Below, in pieces: positions 1,710 through 58,740 of a stretch of 63,017 nucleotides of DNA. The DNA is from a virus. Position numbers and translations under genes: made by a program. The notes under the pieces are model-generated. The model did no database searches. It worked only from the letters and a program-made list of their open reading frames with translations, and was not told where the DNA came from. The number at the start of each line of letters is the position of its first letter. The stretch's first letter is position 1. Location: IMG/VR virus record IMGVR_UViG_3300032293_001810, positions 1 to 63,017 of that record; one strand, given 5' to 3'.

Positions 1710-2304
1710 GAATGATGATGACCGTCTCAGCATGATTGAGGCTATGATTGCAAGCGGTGAGGTTTATGAAGGATATAGGGAAAAAGGAAGTACTCGTGCA
1801 CCAACACCTACTACTACTAAAAAGGTAAGGAAGAAGCGAGAGACTTATAAGCATATCACTGATGATATGATTTTTAAAGCCTTCTCCCACGATAAGACTT
1901 GGCAAGAGATTGGTGCTGAACTAGGTATGACCTTATTTAGCATACGAAAGCGAGCGATGGCTCTCGGACTTGATAAAGAGAATTGTAGTGGTAAGCATGC
2001 ACAAATTAACCTACCGACCTATGACCAATTGAAAGAACTTGCGATACCTGAACGGACATGGAAAGAGATTGCCAAAATGCTCGGTGTTTCACGATTTAGT
2101 CTAGTGAAATATGCTAAATCGGTAGGGATTACAAAAGAGCGTACCCCCCAGCCGTATCATAAAAAGATTGATCCTCAGCGAATGAAACAATTAGTTGATC
2201 AAAACCTTAGTTGGCAAAAGATAGCCGATACTTTGGGTATATCATGCACCTACGCTTATATGTTTGCAAAGAAACATGGGCTACAGAAAGATAACAAATG
2301 CTAG
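1699..2304 (+). CDS. Tandem helix-turn-helix protein, three units
   Basis: 201 residues with three HTH units: TWQEIGAELGMTLFSIRKRA, TWKEIAKMLGVSRFSLVKYA and SWQKIADTLGISCTYAYMFA. They are spaced about 45-50 residues apart, and each ends in a Gly-Leu/Ile cap. AAGGAATAAGA precedes the start. The N-terminus resembles that of the gene at 1230 (Asp-rich, then an IEAMIASGEVYEGY-type segment matching LEQLIATGEVYKEH), so the two are paralogues. It overlaps the first methyltransferase gene by 7 bases, so the two are probably translated together. A target-recognition or regulatory role towards the methyltransferases is an inference. Confidence 0.7.
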   Translation: MMIKNDDDRLSMIEAMIASGEVYEGYREKGSTRAPTPTTTKKVRKKRETYKHITDDMIFKAFSHDKTWQEIGAELGMTLFSIRKRAMALGLDKENCSGKHAQINLPTYDQLKELAIPERTWKEIAKMLGVSRFSLVKYAKSVGITKERTPQPYHKKIDPQRMKQLVDQNLSWQKIADTLGISCTYAYMFAKKHGLQKDNKC

Positions 2305-3053
2305 AAGAAAACAGAATCCATCTTGGCGATTGCCTTGACCTTATGCCATCCATTCCATCGAAGTCGGTTGATATGATCCTTTGCGATTTGCCTTATGGTA
2401 CAACGGCTTGCGAGTGGGATTCTATCATTGACATGTCTAAACTTTGGCAAGAGTATGAACGAGTTATCAAAGACAATGGGGCGATTGTTTTGACGGCCAA
2501 TGCAAAATTCACTTTTCTTTTAGGTGCATCCAATATCAAGTTGCTTAGATATAAATGGGTGTGGATGAAAACTAGAAAAACTATGTTTTTACAAGCAAAT
2601 AAGATGCCATTAAGACAACATGAAGATGTATTAATTTTTTACAAATCTTTGCCAACATATAACCCTCAAAAAGAACCTTGTGAACCTAAAAAAACATCGC
2701 ATAAAAAAACAACAGTCAAAGATAATCAAACGTGGAATAAGAACCTTATTCGCATAGAAACAAATAATGAGGGTTTAACATATCCGAGCGATTTGTTATC
2801 ACTTGATGATATTGAAAAAACAATCCATCCAACACAAAAGCCAGTGGCCTTGTTTGAGTACCTAATCAAAACCTACTCCAATGAAGGCGAACTAGTCTTA
2901 GATAATTGCAGTGGATCAGGTACAACGGCAATCGCTTGCATGAATACCAATAGAAGGTTTATTTGCATTGAGAGGGATGAAACCTATCACCGCAAGAGCA
3001 TTGAGAGAATGAACAACCATGAACCACTATTCCATTTGGGGGATAAATGCTAG
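2298..3053 (+). CDS. Beta-class N6-adenine/N4-cytosine DNA methyltransferase, copy A
   Basis: 251 residues of the N4/N6 DNA methylase family. Catalytic motif IV (DLPY, residues 30-33) is near the N-terminus, and the SAM-binding motif I region (LDNCSGSGTT) is near the C-terminus. This IV-TRD-I order defines the beta class. The central part, about residues 60-190, is the likely target-recognition region. It is one of a tandem pair with the gene at 3047: the first 55 and last 60 residues are nearly identical while the centres differ strongly. It transfers a methyl group from SAM to an exocyclic amino group; DLPY does not settle adenine versus cytosine. No cognate nuclease is visible, so an orphan modification enzyme is likely. 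Confidence 0.85.
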   Translation: MLEENRIHLGDCLDLMPSIPSKSVDMILCDLPYGTTACEWDSIIDMSKLWQEYERVIKDNGAIVLTANAKFTFLLGASNIKLLRYKWVWMKTRKTMFLQANKMPLRQHEDVLIFYKSLPTYNPQKEPCEPKKTSHKKTTVKDNQTWNKNLIRIETNNEGLTYPSDLLSLDDIEKTIHPTQKPVALFEYLIKTYSNEGELVLDNCSGSGTTAIACMNTNRRFICIERDETYHRKSIERMNNHEPLFHLGDKC

Positions 3054-3811
3054 AAGAAAACAAAATCCATTTAGGCGATTGCCTTGATCTAATGCCATCA
3101 ATCCCATCGAAGTCGGTTGACATGATCCTTTGCGACTTGCCTTATGGTACAACGGCTTGCGAATGGGATTCTATTATCGATATGGCTAGGCTTTGGCAAG
3201 AGTATGAACGAGTGATTAAGGATAATGGAGCTATTGTTTTGACGGCGAATAATGTCTTTACTTTCAAGCTATGGTCAAGCAATCCATACATTTTTAAGTA
3301 TAAAATAATATGGGATAAAATCATGAAGGTTGGACATTTATCAGCAAATAAGATGCCAATGAAACAGCATGAAGATATTTTGATTTTTTATAAACATCAA
3401 CCTTGTTTTAATCCTCAAAAGACAAGCGGTGAGAAATATGTTGTAAAAAGAAACAAAACTATGAAAGCTCCTGAATATCAAATAGGAGCTCCTATCGCTA
3501 GAACAGACACAATTAACGATGGTGATAGATATCCGAGCGATATCATTTGTTTTTCAGCCAACACATTTACTAAAGATATTGGGATGCATCCAACACAAAA
3601 GCCAGTAGCCTTGTTTGAGTACCTAATCAAAACCTATACCAATGAGAACGAGCTAGTCCTAGATAATTGCTCAGGTTCAGGGACTACAGCCATAGCTTGC
3701 ATGAATACCAATAGACGGTTCATTTGCATTGAGAGGGATGAAACCTATCACAAGAAGAGCATTGAACGAATGAATAACCACGAGCCATTATTTCACTTAG
3801 GAAAATCATGA
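3047..3811 (+). CDS. Beta-class N6-adenine/N4-cytosine DNA methyltransferase, copy B
   Basis: 254 residues, paralogue of the gene at 2298 and overlapping its end by 7 bases. Both open with the same 5' sequence after a GATAA element. The DLPYG catalytic motif and LDNCSGSGTT SAM motif are intact, as is the conserved HPTQKP block just upstream of motif I. The central segment differs from copy A in sequence and length, so copy B probably methylates another site. Strong ribosome site GGGGGATAA. The following HsdM-like gene overlaps by 4 bases (ATGA type), so one operon is likely. Confidence 0.85.
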   Translation: MLEENKIHLGDCLDLMPSIPSKSVDMILCDLPYGTTACEWDSIIDMARLWQEYERVIKDNGAIVLTANNVFTFKLWSSNPYIFKYKIIWDKIMKVGHLSANKMPMKQHEDILIFYKHQPCFNPQKTSGEKYVVKRNKTMKAPEYQIGAPIARTDTINDGDRYPSDIICFSANTFTKDIGMHPTQKPVALFEYLIKTYTNENELVLDNCSGSGTTAIACMNTNRRFICIERDETYHKKSIERMNNHEPLFHLGKS

Positions 3812-33439: not shown

Positions 33440-33766
33440 TTACCCCCCCCTCCCCTCACTACTTTAGCATATGTATGTATGTATCATCTAAACTACTGAA
33501 ATATATAAACAAAACAACAAAAATAAATAAAGTAAATAATAGTAATTAAGAGAGGGGGGGGAGGGGGGTATTTTTTAAGGGGGTAGTGTATATTTTTTTT
33601 AGTGATACACCCACATGATACACAAGCATGATATTTTTTAGCTAGTATAGAGATACCCCCCCTCCCCCCTAGCTACTATTTCCCACCTATTTAAAAAATG
33701 CTTTATTTCTCAATACTTAAACAACATTGATTTTTTCTAAAAAGTAGGAGGGGGGGAGGGGGGTAC
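33440..33766. repeat. Four G/C tracts with G-quadruplex potential
   Basis: C tracts lie at about 33442-33455 and 33654-33669. G tracts of the form seven or eight G, A, six G lie at about 33554-33568 and 33749-33763, and a further GGGGG at about 33579. They alternate between strands. Such runs are very unusual in AT-rich DNA with otherwise dense coding. Each could form a G-quadruplex or triplex structure on one strand. Confidence 0.7.
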
Positions 33767-47239: not shown

Positions 47240-48613
47240 TTATCCTACTACTACATCGATTGAAAGCATGGCTATATTATAGATATCTTGAGCATAGCTA
47301 GTATTTAAAAAATCTCTTCGTCTAATCTTAAAGCCGTAGCCCGTTTGAGTTGTCCCGCTTGCATCAGTATATTGCACAAGCTTGATCTTATTTGCGGTGG
47401 CAACATTAGATACATTACCATCCATAAGGATATCAAAGCCCTTAGTATCTTGGTCTCTAAAATAGATCGTACCTACACCGTCCACGATATCAGTCATAGG
47501 GATAAGTGTGTTAAGTGTACAAGTGAAGAGTTTATCAAAATAGCTTTGATCCACAAGGACAACATAACTCGCAAGCATGCATTGTACGGCGTCGCTACTA
47601 GCATTAACTTTTTGAGCGGTGTAAGGCGTTGTGATTGTGCCTAAATGCTCGACTGGCTCATAGTCTTGTCTGATATCAAGGTTGAAATCATCAGCGGTAT
47701 TTTGGGATATAGTGAGAGCATTTGAATAGGGATTACGAAGATCTAAAATATGTTTGAGAGTAGCTGAGCCACGCTTCTTCTTGGCAATAAAAGCATTTAA
47801 ACTAGCGGTGAGAGCGGTGAGCGAAACATTGATATCATTGATCTTTGATTTGAGATGCTCCATGCCTTCTTGTAAGCCCCCAATACCAGCGGGGCTATCA
47901 TTCGCAATCCATTCACTTGTATTGTCCGTTGTGGATGAATTACCTACTAGCTGATCGGCTAAGTAGTAGGGGGTAATACCAGATAGCGATAATTGCACGG
48001 TGCTACCTGAAAGCGTCCATTGAGTGATACGACCAATGAGCGACCATGATTCACCGTCATCACCTAAATCACTAGGTACGCCAACATGAAACAAGGTGCT
48101 TTCAATTTGTCTAGTAGCGATTGCTTGGGTAATCTCAGCACCGTCTACTACCGACCAAAAGCGTCTATTTTGTGTTGATCCACTACTGAGTACTCTCTTT
48201 GCATAGATAGGTGGATAATATTGTGCATGAGTACCTGAGATATAACCTACACTTGTGGGGGTAGGTGGCAAGGCTGAATTTGTGTTATAGTAGATTTGAG
48301 TAAGAGCTTGGGCGGTGGTAAAATCACAATTACCATTTGTAGCCGTTGTTCTATGTACACATACACTACCTTGAGTTGCATCATCCCCGCTAATTGTACG
48401 AGCAAAAAAACTGAAATCACTAAAGGCAATCAATTTGCTTGAATTGTTAATCGTACTTGAGTTATCCCACTTCTTTAGCAAGCCTCCCCCAGTTGTGACA
48501 AGTCCACCGAGCAAGCGACTTACTTGATCATGCACAATGTTTTGGATGCCTTGAACATCTTCAAGGTCAAGTCTTTCAAGTGGTTGTAGTAGTACTTTTT
48601 TTTCAATAGCCAT
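47240..48613 (-). CDS. Baseplate/tail appendage protein
   Basis: 457 residues, with GTAGGAG upstream and a start 2 bases from the baseplate J gene stop. The N-terminus LERLDLEDVQGIQNIVHDQV is an attachment-type helix; the rest is beta-rich and Ser/Thr/Gly-rich. A short coiled coil (MEHLKSKINDINVSLTALTA) lies near residue 250. It lies between the J-like baseplate gene and a fibre gene, a position used for fibre-connector proteins. Function inferred from position. Confidence 0.6.
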   Translation of the reverse strand: MAIEKKVLLQPLERLDLEDVQGIQNIVHDQVSRLLGGLVTTGGGLLKKWDNSSTINNSSKLIAFSDFSFFARTISGDDATQGSVCVHRTTATNGNCDFTTAQALTQIYYNTNSALPPTPTSVGYISGTHAQYYPPIYAKRVLSSGSTQNRRFWSVVDGAEITQAIATRQIESTLFHVGVPSDLGDDGESWSLIGRITQWTLSGSTVQLSLSGITPYYLADQLVGNSSTTDNTSEWIANDSPAGIGGLQEGMEHLKSKINDINVSLTALTASLNAFIAKKKRGSATLKHILDLRNPYSNALTISQNTADDFNLDIRQDYEPVEHLGTITTPYTAQKVNASSDAVQCMLASYVVLVDQSYFDKLFTCTLNTLIPMTDIVDGVGTIYFRDQDTKGFDILMDGNVSNVATANKIKLVQYTDASGTTQTGYGFKIRRRDFLNTSYAQDIYNIAMLSIDVVVG

Positions 48614-52481: not shown

Positions 52482-53972
52482 TCATCCTCGCTTTTCTACT
52501 TGTGATTTAGGGATAGGATTTATAGCCTTATCCGTTGCGTTTTGGGGATAATCTTGCTTGACTTGCTTGGGATAGAATAGAGGCAATCGCCTATTACTAC
52601 CTCTCTCAAAATGTAGATCGATTGAGCCTTCTTGGATACCTGAAGGTGAGAGGCTGATCTTGTATTCAAGTTTGTTTATATACCCCGTAAAGCCGTTGAA
52701 TGAGAACCACTGACCGATTGTTAAAGCTTGAGTAAATGACAAGGCAAGCTTGATAACCCCCGTACTATAATATGCACCATCACCATGTAGACAAAAGCCT
52801 AATTCCGTAAGTTTAGCTGATACTTGGGGGGATGTATCTTCAACATAAAAATTAGTGATAACCTTATGGGATATCCCAAATTGCTCGGCGTCATCCTCAT
52901 TCATGATCAGGTGATTTAGGCTCTCAGCTAAGGAAAAGGTAACACTAGAATTACTCTCACTCACCCCATTATAAACCGAGATTGTATTGATTTGATCATC
53001 ATCTAAGTCATAGGCAATGGATAAGACCTGATGCGGTGGTATCTCTAGGTATTCGATCTTTGATCTATCGCTACTATCCTCAGTGAATGTTTTTTCTACC
53101 ACTGGACGCGAGATGATACGAGTATCACGGACTTTCTCAAGGGATTTTTGAGAGATATTAAATTGAGGTGGTAAAGGCTTGTACCTAAAAACAATCGTAG
53201 GTACTGCCCCCAAAGACTTGTAAAGTACCTTCTTCGCTTGATCTATTTTGTAGTCATCTTGGTAGGGTACAAGTAAGAAGAAAAACTCTACTAATTCCGG
53301 CGTTTGTTGGAATATCGTCATAAATTTTTGAAGAGTTAAAATCTTGTCATTTGGATTGACTAAACCTTGCTTTAGGATAGAGTAAACCTTATTACTTGCA
53401 TTTGAATACTGAGCAAGTTGGGGGAGATGATAACCTTGTACCCCATCGCATACATTGATCAGATCAGATACTTTTAAACCTTGTTCGAAGAGGGAAACGG
53501 GGATTTTGGCAAAAGAGAATTGATCAAGTGTATATTGTAGGATTTTACTTAGATCATTCTCTTGTCTGAGATATGCACCATAATCAGCTAGCTTTTCACT
53601 TGTGATTGATCCAAAGATACGAGTCGTATTTGAATGGATAATCTCCGCATTGAGCATTCTAGTGAAGATACTATCACAACCTATTCTACATGTGCTTATC
53701 TCAAGCCCCATATCATCATAGATTGTATCCACCGAGATACTATCAATGAAGCCCCAATAGACAAGCTGATCCATGTATTTGATCGTAATTTGCTTGCCCT
53801 TTAAAATGTCATTCTCACCGTTTGAGAATATTGTACCGACACTTGCACGAAAAAGCTGAAGGCTTACACTTGCCTTGTTACCGATCAAATCGATTGATTG
53901 ACTAAATGATATGTCCGTAACAAGTGAAGAGATATCAAGCCGTTCAAGGCCTAGAATTTCAAGTTTAATCAT
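52482..53972 (-). CDS. Baseplate hub protein (gpD/gp27-like)
   Basis: 496 residues. The N-terminal beta domain LEILGLERLDISSLVTDISF and DQLVYWGFIDSISVDTIYDD, then a helical domain and later GQWFSFNGFTGYINKLEYKI, follow the late-control-D/gp27 tube-like fold. It sits between the tape measure and spike genes, as hubs do in many myoviruses. Its start overlaps the tape-measure stop. Confidence 0.75.
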   Translation of the reverse strand: MIKLEILGLERLDISSLVTDISFSQSIDLIGNKASVSLQLFRASVGTIFSNGENDILKGKQITIKYMDQLVYWGFIDSISVDTIYDDMGLEISTCRIGCDSIFTRMLNAEIIHSNTTRIFGSITSEKLADYGAYLRQENDLSKILQYTLDQFSFAKIPVSLFEQGLKVSDLINVCDGVQGYHLPQLAQYSNASNKVYSILKQGLVNPNDKILTLQKFMTIFQQTPELVEFFFLLVPYQDDYKIDQAKKVLYKSLGAVPTIVFRYKPLPPQFNISQKSLEKVRDTRIISRPVVEKTFTEDSSDRSKIEYLEIPPHQVLSIAYDLDDDQINTISVYNGVSESNSSVTFSLAESLNHLIMNEDDAEQFGISHKVITNFYVEDTSPQVSAKLTELGFCLHGDGAYYSTGVIKLALSFTQALTIGQWFSFNGFTGYINKLEYKISLSPSGIQEGSIDLHFERGSNRRLPLFYPKQVKQDYPQNATDKAINPIPKSQVEKRG

Positions 53973-55513
53973 AGCTTGCTACCTTCCCCCGCTTTACGGT
54001 TTTCTTGCTTTACTTTTGTTGGCTCGCTCTTAAATGGATTACTAAAGCCACTAAAACTAAATTTCTCAGTGAGTTTTTCCACCGCTTCAATCGTTTTATT
54101 CATAGCCCCCGCAAGTGTATTTACCCCCTTAGAAAGTACGGTAAGACCTACACTTAAAGCTTGTGCTGCCGTCTCCCCCGTCTTGCCTAAAGCCTCATAG
54201 TCTTGTTGTGTAGATATATTCGTTCTTCTTACTCTTGTATCAGCTTGGATAGCTTGGATAATTGAGCCAGCATTACCTAAAGCTGAATTAATAATTTGCA
54301 TTTCAGCACTTGCTTGAGCTGATGATATTCCACCTCTTCCAATCGCACTAAAATCACCTTTACCTTTACCTAGTATAAGAGGCAATTCTTTGAATGCGTC
54401 CATTAGATCAGAGGGTAGGGATTGCCCCATAAAGTTGTATCTTGATAGTTGTAATTGTTGGGATAAACTTAAATCTGGACGAGCCTTAATCACATCAGCT
54501 TGTTGTTGTGCAAGTAGTAAGCTTGCTTGTTGCGTGGATAGCTTACGATTGAATGTCTCAATAGGATCAGAGGCAATAATCCCTTTCTTTAGAGCATCCT
54601 CTTTTTGAATATCACTGATTGTTTGAAGTAGACTTGTGCCTTTACTAGTAGCATCGCTAATTCTCTTTAACAATTCCGTTGTGTTGGTACTTGCAAGCGA
54701 TAAATCCCCACTCATCATTCTTTGAGATAGCATGCCTTGAATAGATGATAATCCAGCTCTTCTTTGCTCTGGTGATAAATCTTGACCCATTAGAGAGGTA
54801 GCCAAAGAGACGCCTAAATTTGATTGCTTGCCTAGTGTATCACCTAGCTTTTGTATACTAGCGACAAGCCCCGCCCCTAGTCCCCTTTGCTCGCTTGCGA
54901 TTGCTTGATCAACACTTAAAGCCCCACCACTCATAGCGATTGCTTTTTGAATAGAGAAGGCTTCACCTGATTTATACCCTCTACCCGCAAATCCTTGTAT
55001 ACCACTACCCCCAAGACCCTTTAGATCAGCAAGGCTAGAACTATAACCAGCTACTTGGTCGCCCGCTCCCATTAAAGTTGAGAATTGACTAGCTAAGAGG
55101 TTACCTATACCAAAAGGGATAGCTGATAATTGACCGGCAAATCCATTGCTTAGTCCACCTACTTGTCCTGCTCTTGCCATAATCTGAGATATTTTTTGTT
55201 CAAGTTGTTGTAGGTTTTGCCCACCATCCTTGTCAGCTTTCTCAGCCTTTACTTGTGCTTGACCTTGTGCCGTTGCTTGCTTGGTAGCCTCAGCACTGGC
55301 CGTATTACTTGCGACAAGCTTTTGATTTATCTCTATGAGTTGTTTAAGTACCGCTGAGAGATTATTCATAGCGGTGATAATACCCGTTGATCCAGTAGCT
55401 TGTGGTGTGCTAGTAGGTGGTGCAACGGTTGGTTGTGCTAGTGGTGGCTCAGTGAGTTGTGGTTGAGCTACCCCCATAGGCATATTATTGATTGTAGGTT
55501 GCGAGGTAATCAC
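53969..55513 (-). CDS. Putative tape-measure protein
   Basis: 514 residues with a GTG start (55513) 11 bases from AGAGGAG; the next ATG lacks a site. An N-terminal Pro/Gln-rich stretch, a helical Ala/Gln-rich part (TASAEATKQATAQGQAQVKA), a hydrophobic middle and a helical C-terminus with a Lys-rich end are seen. Position after the chaperone pair and before the hub is diagnostic. At roughly 0.15 nm per residue a 514-residue tape measure implies a short tail of about 75 nm. Confidence 0.75.
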   Translation of the reverse strand: MITSQPTINNMPMGVAQPQLTEPPLAQPTVAPPTSTPQATGSTGIITAMNNLSAVLKQLIEINQKLVASNTASAEATKQATAQGQAQVKAEKADKDGGQNLQQLEQKISQIMARAGQVGGLSNGFAGQLSAIPFGIGNLLASQFSTLMGAGDQVAGYSSSLADLKGLGGSGIQGFAGRGYKSGEAFSIQKAIAMSGGALSVDQAIASEQRGLGAGLVASIQKLGDTLGKQSNLGVSLATSLMGQDLSPEQRRAGLSSIQGMLSQRMMSGDLSLASTNTTELLKRISDATSKGTSLLQTISDIQKEDALKKGIIASDPIETFNRKLSTQQASLLLAQQQADVIKARPDLSLSQQLQLSRYNFMGQSLPSDLMDAFKELPLILGKGKGDFSAIGRGGISSAQASAEMQIINSALGNAGSIIQAIQADTRVRRTNISTQQDYEALGKTGETAAQALSVGLTVLSKGVNTLAGAMNKTIEAVEKLTEKFSFSGFSNPFKSEPTKVKQENRKAGEGSKL

Positions 55514-55808
55514 TTAAATCTTCTCCTCTTGCTAGAGCTTGCTCCATCATGTCTATCTCGCTAATCCCCGTCATAGCGATACCGTCTTGGATTTGGATTT
55601 TAGCATAAAGATGGGGGAAAGCTTGCTCAAATGTTTCTTGTGTGCAATGGAGCATAGCAAGCTCTAAATTTTCCCATGAATAATAGTTTTCAATTGAGAG
55701 GTGGTATTTAATTCGATCTGGTAATAAACTTTGTAGTAATGGAAATTCGCCTTTGTCCCTTAGCTTCTTGACCCTCTTTGGTGCTTGCTCCAAAAAAAAG
55801 AGATTCAT
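55485..55808 (-). CDS. Tail-assembly chaperone, downstream frame (probable frameshift product)
   Basis: 107 codons open in the frame +1 (or -2) relative to the gene at 55708, overlapping it by 101 bases. A weak ATG at 55808 exists, but it has no good ribosome site. The T-run at 55792-55799 lies at the start of the overlap, so a slipped ribosome would enter this frame there. A fusion of about 230 residues would result, the usual size of a long chaperone form. Sequence: RVKKLRDKGEFPLLQSLLPD, then helical and acidic. It ends inside the tape-measure start. Confidence 0.7.
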   Translation of the reverse strand: MNLFFLEQAPKRVKKLRDKGEFPLLQSLLPDRIKYHLSIENYYSWENLELAMLHCTQETFEQAFPHLYAKIQIQDGIAMTGISEIDMMEQALARGEDLSDYLATYNQ

Positions 55809-56181
55809 GCTCGACCAATGTATTCAAAATCTGAATGAGTAATTGATTATCTTGACCAATCCATTCAGTTAGCCACTCTGGTGGATCTTTGAGTTGAACT
55901 AGACAACGAGCAAGACCTTGTAGGCGGTATTTTTCCTCAGTAGGCAAGTTTTCAAAGACTACCCCCATGCACAAGGATTGAAGTACCCTATTCATAGCTA
56001 GACGGCTTTCGGTATCCATTACACAAGAGAGAAGATCAGCTCTAAATTGCTTGCCTGTTGGGGCTACATATTCAATAGAAAAGCTCTCTTCTCTACTCAC
56101 TAAATCTTCTTCTTTTTTCTCTACTAAAGACTCAGCATCAGCCTTGATCTTTCTCAGATCAATTGTTTCTTTCTTTGTCAT
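55708..56181 (-). CDS. Tail-assembly chaperone, short form
   Basis: 157 residues, helical. It reads DLRKIKADAESLVEKKEED and EYVAPTGKQFRADLLSCV, then a helical core (SRLAMNRVLQSLCMGVVF, LARCLVQLKDPPEWLTEWIG). It lies between the tail tube and the tape measure, as chaperones of the gpG/XkdN type do. GATTTCAC-like end elements are absent; AAAGGATC precedes the start within a dyad. It would bind the tape measure during tail assembly. Confidence 0.75.
   Translation of the reverse strand: MTKKETIDLRKIKADAESLVEKKEEDLVSREESFSIEYVAPTGKQFRADLLSCVMDTESRLAMNRVLQSLCMGVVFENLPTEEKYRLQGLARCLVQLKDPPEWLTEWIGQDNQLLIQILNTLVEHESLFFGASTKEGQEAKGQRRISITTKFITRSN
55791..55801 (-). other. Probable programmed frameshift site (T8 run)
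   Basis: On the minus strand the short chaperone reads TCT CTT TTT TTT GGA; the second frame reads CTC TTT TTT TTG GAG. Eight consecutive T allow a ribosome to slip by +1 or -2 with codon-anticodon pairing kept, or RNA polymerase to slip. Only 3-9 codons separate the run from the start of the overlap. Whether slippage occurs is not shown by sequence alone. Confidence 0.6.
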
Positions 56182-56223
56182 GTTTTGATCCTTTCAAAAT
56201 ATATAAAAAGATATATCAAAACA
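56181..56223 (-). promoter_or_regulatory. Leader dyad of the chaperone gene
   Basis: On the minus strand TGTTTTGAT (56223-56215) and ATCAAAACA (56189-56181) are complementary, nine pairs with a 25-base loop. The loop holds TATA-rich sequence and the AAAGG ribosome site next to the right arm, and the first base of the ATG lies in the right arm. This is the only clear minus-strand member of the dyad family found. Confidence 0.6.
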
Positions 56224-56317: not shown

Positions 56318-56800
56318 TTAACCGAGTTGTTCGGTATCTTTGATTTCAATCAGCTTCAAGGCTTGGAAGTTAATGTTTGTTGCCATGAGAGTTTGACGAT
56401 TGACGGTAAAACTTTGGCTTTCTGGCTTACAACCTTTGATCAAATATCTTGACTTTTGCCCAGCACCAAAATCAGCTGAATCAGCTAATTCTAAATCAAT
56501 GCCTTGAGTGAAGAAATTGACTACATCAACGGTTCTTTGTTGATTTGTAGCGGTAGCGAGGTGGCTAGGGACTAAACCTTGTGATGCTGATCCACCATCT
56601 GGAACTACTCTCATAAAGCCTACTTGACAAGATACTGTTCTACCTACTGGTTCAATATCATAGCTATCAATAGATCCTAAAACATCCACTCTTTGAAGAG
56701 TATATGTTTCGGTAACGGTGATGTTTGTGCAATAGCCGATTGCCTTACCATCTTTTTTTACAATTGCGGATGCACCGCTGATTACTCTAGGTTGTACCAT
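56318..56800 (-). CDS. Tail tube protein
   Basis: 160 residues, beta-rich (GYCTNITVTETYTLQRVDVL, VSCQVGFMRVVPDGG), starting two bases after the sheath stop. Position after the sheath and size fit gp19/FII-type tail tubes of contractile tails. It polymerises to form the inner tube. GGGAGAA upstream. Confidence 0.85.
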   Translation of the reverse strand: MVQPRVISGASAIVKKDGKAIGYCTNITVTETYTLQRVDVLGSIDSYDIEPVGRTVSCQVGFMRVVPDGGSASQGLVPSHLATATNQQRTVDVVNFFTQGIDLELADSADFGAGQKSRYLIKGCKPESQSFTVNRQTLMATNINFQALKLIEIKDTEQLG

Positions 56801-56802
56801 GA

Positions 56803-58740
56803 CTAAATTCTCCCAACATTAGCGGTGATTGTGATGAAATTGAGAGGCTCAACACCTGCTACTGAGTACACTACACTAAGAACATCACCTGATTGACGGA
56901 CTACAACATCTTTGAAATCAAGGATTAGTCCGCTATCTCTTTGAAAGCTCAAGCGATTGATTGTAAGCCGTTGAACATTGTCTTTTTGTGCAACGGTTGA
57001 TTTACTACCAATTTCAGTATCAAGGAAGAGTCTTAAATCTCTAATGCTAAGGTTAATGCTTTCATTCGCTGAAACCTCAGTATAGAATGGATTGTTGTCC
57101 TTCAACCACGTTGTGATTGATCGTTCTACCTTGAGGCCACGATCTTGACCGTTCAAAACTACAATACCTTTTTGGATTGCAAGGCTAGCGTCTGACTCAG
57201 CATTAAAGGCTTGAACGGTATCAAAAATCTTAGGTTGTTTTCTTGTGAGAGGGGTAGCAACACCTAGTGAAGCTTGAAGGCAAGCCATAAAGAAAGCTAA
57301 GGCTTTAGGTGCTAAAGTCTTTTTCTCACCATTGATTAACACGATAGGGGATTGACCTACTACGGCACAATTACGGTCATTCAAAACTTTTACATATTGA
57401 GCATTGATCTGGCTAAGTGTTAAATTTGCACTTGTACCTACCCATGCGTTTCGTTCAAGTCCCGCTTCTACTGAAGCCTTTACACAATGTTCTTTAACAA
57501 GTGTATGGATAGCAATGTCATCAGTGTATGCAACAACGATATTAATTTGCTTGTACACTAAAGCATCAAGAGCCGATTGCCAATCGCTAGAGGTAAGTGA
57601 GCCTACGGATCCACCAATCAAGCTAAAGCCTACGGTTGAGCCTACTGGTCTATCACCGCTTACGATTTCACCTTCTACTACAAGGCTTCCATCTAGGAAA
57701 TCTTTGAGGAAAGAGCAATCACAAGTGAGAGATAGAGGACTTGATGTAATGCTAAGATTTGCAACATTATCAAGTTGTTCACCGCTTACAATGGATTCGG
57801 GCAAAACTACATCAATATCAGAATTGATCTGATTGATTGTTGTGAGTGTGCTGCTTAAATTAGAGATATCGGAAAGCTTCACGGAATACAATGCACCGCT
57901 GATTTCAATACTACCAGCATAATCACTTGCACCATCCAAAACAATGCTTGTGATTTGTGAGTATTCTTGACTTGTTGTGATTGTTGTACCTATTGCACCT
58001 GAAGGCAAGGTGGTAGTAGTAGTGATTGTGCTACCTGATTCGGATAAGCCGTGAATAGTAATCGCAACGGCTGAAGGTGTGCTACTTGTTCTTTGGGTAA
58101 AGGTAAGTGTACCGCTCACAATCAATCCACCGAAATCAATAGAAGTACCGGGGATGATGATTGATGAGGTAACATTCTTGATAAAATTGACGGCAAGTTT
58201 ATCAGTAGCTTGATTGATCAGTAATTTTGCATCGCTGAGTAAAGTACCAGTGTATTGTAAACTTGCAATCTTGCCTTTACCAATACCTAGATTTTTCTCT
58301 ACGAGATTACCGCTTTCATATACATAAAGATCGTACAAGTCAGCATCATCACCGTTTTCATCCAAAGCAACAAAAACACGATTACCACATGGACCGTAAT
58401 GTTTGGCTTTGATCTTGAGACCGTTGATTGTCTTACTTGCTTGTGTTGTATTGCGAGCATTCACGATTGTGATACTTGTGGGATTGCCACCTAAATCGGC
58501 TCTAGGTGAGAAACCGATCTGACCGAGTACATCTAAACCGTATTCCCCCCCAGTAGCTTCTAAGAAGGCTTCTAGGTTGTCATAGGTGTTGACGCTATCT
58601 TTTTGGAAGAGGGGGAAATCACCGACAAGAGCTACTGCACCGCTTGCAATGCTTGGATTTGTAGTAGGTGCTTGTTTGATTTCACCGTAGACGCCGGGAC
58701 GATATTTTCTTCCACCTTGAAAGATGATAGATGAAGGCAT
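56803..58740 (-). CDS. Tail sheath protein
   Basis: 645 residues. The N-terminus RKYRPGVYGEIKQAPTTNPS and SGAVALVGDFPLFQKDS are typical of phage sheath proteins, whose N-terminal arm links subunits. The C-terminal part has GVATPLTRKQPKIFDTVQAF, IQKGIVVLNGQDRGLKVERS and a TTWLKD-type block, as in the sheath core domain. Inserted beta domains explain the length. It contracts on infection. AAGGAGA lies upstream. Confidence 0.93.
   Translation of the reverse strand: MPSSIIFQGGRKYRPGVYGEIKQAPTTNPSIASGAVALVGDFPLFQKDSVNTYDNLEAFLEATGGEYGLDVLGQIGFSPRADLGGNPTSITIVNARNTTQASKTINGLKIKAKHYGPCGNRVFVALDENGDDADLYDLYVYESGNLVEKNLGIGKGKIASLQYTGTLLSDAKLLINQATDKLAVNFIKNVTSSIIIPGTSIDFGGLIVSGTLTFTQRTSSTPSAVAITIHGLSESGSTITTTTTLPSGAIGTTITTSQEYSQITSIVLDGASDYAGSIEISGALYSVKLSDISNLSSTLTTINQINSDIDVVLPESIVSGEQLDNVANLSITSSPLSLTCDCSFLKDFLDGSLVVEGEIVSGDRPVGSTVGFSLIGGSVGSLTSSDWQSALDALVYKQINIVVAYTDDIAIHTLVKEHCVKASVEAGLERNAWVGTSANLTLSQINAQYVKVLNDRNCAVVGQSPIVLINGEKKTLAPKALAFFMACLQASLGVATPLTRKQPKIFDTVQAFNAESDASLAIQKGIVVLNGQDRGLKVERSITTWLKDNNPFYTEVSANESINLSIRDLRLFLDTEIGSKSTVAQKDNVQRLTINRLSFQRDSGLILDFKDVVVRQSGDVLSVVYSVAGVEPLNFITITANVGRI

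Follow-up and report, generated by a model that had tools for sequence, protein, structure and literature searches.

A putative tail assembly chaperone with a +1 frame step at a T8 run that likely replaced a UUU_CGN shift site, in an uncultured contractile-tailed phage

How two overlapping frames in the tail gene region of a virus are connected, and what a run of eight T in their overlap contributes to this connection, is the question raised by the locus described here. The locus belongs to a 63 kb virus record from IMG/VR (IMGVR_UViG_3300032293_001810), which was analyzed over its entire length of 63,017 nucleotides and is referred to as the window. On its minus strand, genes for a major capsid protein (SU10-like), a sheath and a tube-like protein are followed by ORF1, an overlapping frame and the gene for a 514-aa protein (Table 1). 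The window represents an uncultured contractile-tailed phage with a bacterium or an archaeon as host. The 514-aa protein did not yield any profile matches in Pfam or PHROGs and is named by its tape-measure position alone.

Neither TAC1, the product of ORF1, nor TAC2, the product of the overlapping frame, matched any family in Pfam and PHROGs, libraries which may lack the family of these proteins. The two were folded apart and not as a fusion. For TAC1, an AF2 model with a mean pLDDT of 83 was compared by Foldseek with the predicted structures of BFVD and matched annotated tail assembly chaperones (TACs) of 521B, JL, LP65 and LfeInf with E-values of 1e-3 to 2e-3, and orf17 of LpeD with an E-value of 7e-5. 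The annotated TACs among these matches are mainly from herelleviruses. No significant chain was found for the TAC1 model in the PDB, no structural match was obtained for the TAC2 model (pLDDT 77.5), and a sequence search with TAC1 retrieved none of seven herellevirus TACs. Taken together, gene order, overlapping frames and a predicted fold common to annotated TACs clearly point to tail assembly chaperone as the putative function of the locus, which agrees with the preliminary description of this DNA.

Table 1. Features of the tail locus in the window.
Feature	Coordinates	Strand	Basis
TAC1 / ORF1, frame 0, G-like short product	55708..56181	-	157 aa ORF, Shine-Dalgarno, AF2 + Foldseek
TAC1 Shine-Dalgarno AAGGA	56189..56193	-	sequence
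+1 frame, stop-to-stop opening	55485..55823	-	ORF2 frame
T8 run, presumed shift site TCT CTT TTT TTT GGA	55792..55799	-	register with TTT_CGN of relatives
TAC2, T-like C-terminal extension presumably read post-shift, 102 codons + stop	55485..55793	-	+1-frame constraint; homologues in diverged lineages
ATG in +1 frame upstream of T8, without Shine-Dalgarno, rival ORF2 start	55806..55808	-	
514-aa gene that follows TAC2, in tape-measure position, starting with GTG	53969..55513	-	position + Shine-Dalgarno
AGGAG Shine-Dalgarno of the 514-aa tape-measure-position gene	55523-55527	-	
Tail tube-like protein	56318..56800	-	PHROG 3776 7.5e-8; phrog_365 'tail protein' 0.0015
Tail sheath protein	56803..58740	-	phrog_279 tail sheath 2.7e-44; PF04984

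The frameshifting of the lambda G/GT-type tail assembly chaperone is reportedly described by Xu, Hendrix and Duda (2004). Like lambda G/GT, the locus has its overlapping frames between the tube gene and the gene in tape-measure position, and a short product together with a low-level fusion would be expected. Unlike in lambda, the step is +1 and not -1. The second frame (55823-55485) is offset from ORF1 by +1, equivalently -2, as had been noticed before, and the -1 frame soon stops, closing 14 codons past the ORF1 stop, so that a lambda-type -1 downstream frame is absent. Any shift is confined to the 38 codons that extend from 55823 to the stop codon of ORF1 at 55710-55708, in the following called the shift window. 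Within it lies the T8 run (A8 on the plus strand), where TCT CTT TTT TTT GGA in frame 0 becomes CTC TTT TTT TTG GAG in the +1 frame. The overlap does not begin at this run, as the preliminary description had it, since the +1 frame opens 24 nt upstream and includes the ATG at 55808 in that stretch. The same description was right in that the second frame lacks a good start: this ATG has no Shine-Dalgarno sequence, whereas ORF1 is preceded by AAGGA and the gene of the 514-aa protein by AGGAG.

The T8 run is the only sense-strand run of at least eight T in the approximately 55 kb of coding sequence in the window. Synonymous shuffling predicts 1.26 such sense runs genome-wide, of which about 0.3% would land in the shift window, so that the location of T8 goes beyond chance. 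Nine other contigs contain TAC1 at 92-100% identity, one of them ending before the shift site. All nine close-clade contigs that cover the site (the window and L002-L009), which come from different metagenome datasets, have exactly T8, and when IMG/VR was scanned by pattern for runs of another length in this sequence context, only T8 and no T7 or T9 variant of the locus turned up. To some degree, coding in two frames enforces this conservation, and it constrains the exact run length too. A separate run, a sense A8 at 48596-48603 near the start of the ORF 48613-47240(-), is one of two A/T homopolymers of at least eight inside the coding sequence of the window; about five sense A8 runs are expected from synonymous shuffling, so that A8 seems to be avoided. 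An intergenic region at 33443-33756, which adjoins a T8 run, contains a motif, C7-8/T/C4-6 or its complement G7-8/A/G4-6, in four near-copies of either orientation; these are possible inverted-repeat structures or terminators.

Substitutions counted among five sequences of the T8 clade reveal in which frame the DNA is constrained. Upstream of T8, frame 0 exhibits 262 synonymous to 83 nonsynonymous substitutions. Between T8 and the ORF1 stop, where divergence amounts to under half of its overall level, the +1 frame has a ratio of 20:9 and frame 0 one of 6:23; beyond that stop, 107 synonymous and 54 nonsynonymous substitutions were counted in the +1 frame. The ratios flip at T8, and therefore the +1 frame takes over protein-level constraint from frame 0 near this run. 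Such a switch is what a frameshift fusion predicts, but a separate ORF2 starting few codons upstream would look similar. In such a case, TAC2 would be a protein of its own, started at the ATG at 55808 by translational coupling or reinitiation. This in-frame ATG stands 9 nt before T8 and recurs in those T8-clade sequences that were examined; it is, however, a by-product of conserved His-Glu codons and, in contrast to the starts of ORF1 and of the gene in tape-measure position, has no Shine-Dalgarno sequence. In the diverged relative L038, moreover, the +1 frame has no start codon from the shift site to well inside the conserved ORF2 domain, yet both this domain and a UUU_CGN site are conserved. 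We consider separate initiation unlikely.

Six diverged lineages with a TAC1 of 34-42% identity (L035/36, L037, L038/40/11, L039, L012-15/L041-44 and L061) were found, in which homologues of TAC2 are present as well. ORF2 is in the +1 frame in all 20 family loci examined, nine with T8 and 11 others. None of the six lineages has an A/T homopolymer of at least seven in the shift window. Instead, all 11 non-T8 loci contain TA[CT]_TTT_CG[AC] (Tyr-Phe-Arg), which aligns codon for codon with TTT_TTT_GGA of the window, whereas the window and the T8 clade have no in-frame TTT_CGN in the shift window. As the relatives share a +1 step at UUU_CGN in the register of T8, the TAC appears to have been +1 ancestrally, with its shift site swapped for T8. 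In a tree of the fusion proteins, the T8 sequences form a single branch (100/99), which falls within the UUU_CGN lineages when the tree is rooted at its midpoint; branches are long, and the placement of T8 has a support of 82/82. This midpoint-rooted tree suggests that T8 is likely derived from the UUU_CGN state. Loss of CGN and gain of T8 over the same codons would be the simplest history.

Relatives were found neither in cellular genomes (two scans of genome contigs) nor in plasmids, and the one weak match of TAC1 in a phage database was judged spurious. An apparent avoidance of TTT_CGN elsewhere in the genome of the window (4 versus 7.6 expected) was no stronger than the depletion of TTT_CNN (47 versus 80).

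The site of the relatives is familiar from other systems. A +1 frameshift at UUU_CGN is found in plant amalgaviruses as well as in influenza A virus. For PA-X of influenza A, protein sequencing established a +1 shift at UUU_CGN: while CGN occupies the A site, tRNA-Phe slides from UUU onto UUC, and the shift is lost with UUC_AGA (PMC3498833). In the TAC overlap of HF1-group haloviruses UUU_CGN has been pointed out as a suggestion (PMC7230728), and the halovirus HSTV-2 has TCC_TTT_CGC in a TAC which is annotated as a join. Every diverged relative of the window's TAC resembles the influenza, amalgavirus and halovirus sites in having TTT_CGN with ORF2 in +1; the clade of the window differs from the PA-X site by TTT_GGA inside T8.

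The same combination recurs in a second TAC family. The best matches of the sheath protein among named phages are myophages of about 90 kb (Aeromonas ST4, Bordetella PHB04, Morganella Mecenats66, Pseudomonas Dolphis and others). Sequence homology of their TAC family, that of Dolphis and ST4, to the TAC1 family of the window was not detected (hhalign probability 0.4%). In all 30 loci of this second family an in-frame TTT_CGN lies in the shift window with an open +1 frame beyond it, and in the records examined the two TAC frames either lack an annotation or are listed as hypothetical proteins with no link between them. For 30 representatives drawn from both families, the chance product is about 10^-52, and about 10^-20 if only codon choice is counted (TTT given Phe, CGN given Arg). 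Common descent of the loci makes both products overstate the evidence, and when the family of the window is taken by itself, codon choice reaches only 10^-3. Long genes from these loci contain TTT_CGN at its expected density (6 versus 6.1; 17 versus 20.3).

Herelleviruses provide a third case. The second frame is +1 in all seven that were checked (LP65, LpeD, Iacchus, LfeInf, 3-521, Grass and Goe8), and near the end of ORF1 five of them have TTT_CGN and two TTT_CTN, namely TTT_CTC in LP65 (L129:3556-4173) and TTT_CTG in LfeInf (L132:892-1536), whose TAC is annotated as a join. The latter two sites suggest that UUU_C may be more important than the Arg codon. Herellevirus TACs are thus like the locus in the predicted fold of TAC1 and in the direction of the second frame, but unlike it they lack T8 and have no sequence match to the TAC1 of the window. 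Judged by the reading frames, +1 holds for each examined member of the three TAC families, and to call the direction unusual, as was done at the outset, was too strong. Candidate +1 TAC fusions with TTT_CGN that are not annotated as such were seen in Dolphis, ST4, PHB04, Mecenats66, fHe-Yen8-01, phiT5282EW and Touem01 (among L073-L106) and in the herelleviruses LpeD, Iacchus, 3-521, Grass and Goe8 (among L129-L135); the second frames of these phages are listed as separate genes or omitted.

Programmed transcriptional realignment at A/T runs is known from dnaX of T. thermophilus and from T3SS genes of Shigella. The T8 clade shares with these a conserved A/T homopolymer of at least eight at the frame junction. 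We know of no TAC that is made by transcriptional realignment. With about even confidence we read the locus as a G/GT-type TAC in which an ancestral +1 slip at UUU_CGN gave way to a T8 run that acts mostly by slippage of RNA polymerase over one T. According to this model TAC1 alone would be the abundant product, and a small fraction of expression events would shift inside T8 into the +1 frame and yield a TAC1-TAC2 fusion. In the ancestor, tRNA-Phe in the P site would have moved from UUU to UUC with CGN waiting in the A site. In the T8 clade CGN would have become GGA, and the +1 re-pairing would have been destroyed because the change from C to G removes UUC; the codons over the old site would have become the T8 run, by which access to the same frame was kept. 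RNA polymerase would now drop one T, and the resulting T7 transcripts would be read straight through as ...S-L-F-L-E-Q..., while a ribosomal +1 slip inside the run would give an identical peptide and may contribute.

Slippage of this kind, which the preliminary description had offered as an option, is indeed a live one: in a reporter with T8, rescue by slippage of E. coli RNA polymerase amounted to about 10% for the deletion type and to as much as 10% for the insertion type, with a minimum of 7 T (PMC6260861), rates which may not be those of the host, as they vary with polymerase and context. No long ORF resembling a phage single-subunit RNA polymerase was seen in the window. Slippage by RNA polymerase stands first in our ranking for T8, about evenly poised, followed by a +1 ribosomal slip and by a -2 slip, with most of the remainder going to separate initiation. 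It counts against the polymerase that UUU_U is itself a plausible +1 ribosomal slip site. Within U8, tRNA-Phe, or tRNA-Leu on CUU_U, could move forward by one base with UUG read next, its re-pairing being perfect or near-perfect and its direction going back to the UUU_CGN ancestor; in all relatives this step is made in the same register at a +1 ribosomal site, and CCC and UUU are cited by the authors of PRFect as the codons next in +1 slipperiness ahead of the RF2 stop codon (PMC10885494). However, the A site offers neither a slow codon nor a stop (UUU, then GGA), a slip at UUU_G requires a wobble mismatch on UUG, and by inspection there is no Shine-Dalgarno-like stimulator close upstream of the run. 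Such a ribosomal slip as the main route is possible but doubtful.

A tandem -2 slip on UUU_UUU in the style of Mu gpGT, which would add one Phe to the fusion, was named first in the preliminary description. TAC frameshifts of -1, -2 and +1 are already known (PMC5009743), the -2 shift being established for Mu (PMC5009743, PMC3498833). The window reaches the same new frame as the gp41-type TAC of Mu (net -2 = +1), and both tRNAs-Phe would re-pair perfectly. Yet a -1 slip on this run would be shorter, pair just as well and end in the early stop beyond ORF1; the relatives use a site that is proven to be +1 in influenza; and the shift region of Mu holds CGG GGG CGA, a G-run which has no counterpart at T8. 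Furthermore, no stimulatory RNA structure was detected 3' of T8, this region being less structured than shuffles (z = +1.4 to +1.9). The -2 reading is not supported as the leading one and appears quite unlikely. That the gene is in truth a single ORF with a T7 or T10 misread as T8 is highly improbable: homopolymers are error-prone, but the run is the same in contigs of different datasets, is free of length variants in IMG/VR, and the relatives without any homopolymer have the same frame step. As RNA polymerase deletion and a +1 ribosomal slip share one peptide and -2 adds one Phe, protein and cDNA data together would separate the mechanisms.

Well-established programmed +1 signals in bacteria and phages are few, for example RF2 and CCC_UGA of Listeria phages. 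The Listeria phages PSA, A118 and A500 have +1 frameshifts in tail and capsid genes, with CCC_UGA as the tail site. The locus is similar to these in that +1 recoding would occur in a phage structural gene, by the ribosome in the Listeria phages, but site and gene are different and no stop codon takes part in the shift of the window. If UUU_CGN drives +1 shifts in bacterial ribosomes at the level required for tail assembly, a signal of influenza and plant viruses would work in eukaryotic and bacterial ribosomes alike, and many pairs of 'hypothetical proteins' in front of phage tape measures would each be one frameshifted gene. This generalization of +1 shifts at UUU_CGN across TACs is probably under-recognized. 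Open-access literature yielded no report of UUU_CGN in TACs of bacterial phages or of a TAC made by transcriptional slippage. Tentatively, and with somewhat less than even confidence, we propose that UUU_CGN is a standard TAC site in several groups of contractile-tailed phages and that the clade of the window switched to RNA polymerase slippage at T8, exchanging translational for transcriptional recoding with an unchanged frame step, as the first TAC known to do so. The T8 clade represents a natural experiment, in which the same codon of the same gene occurs with and without UUU_CGN and in which +1, -2 and transcriptional slippage can be compared. Apart from the tail region, the window contains at 2298-3811 two adjacent and closely similar N6/N4 DNA methyltransferase genes (PF01555), which look like the result of a tandem duplication, their central regions having diverged.
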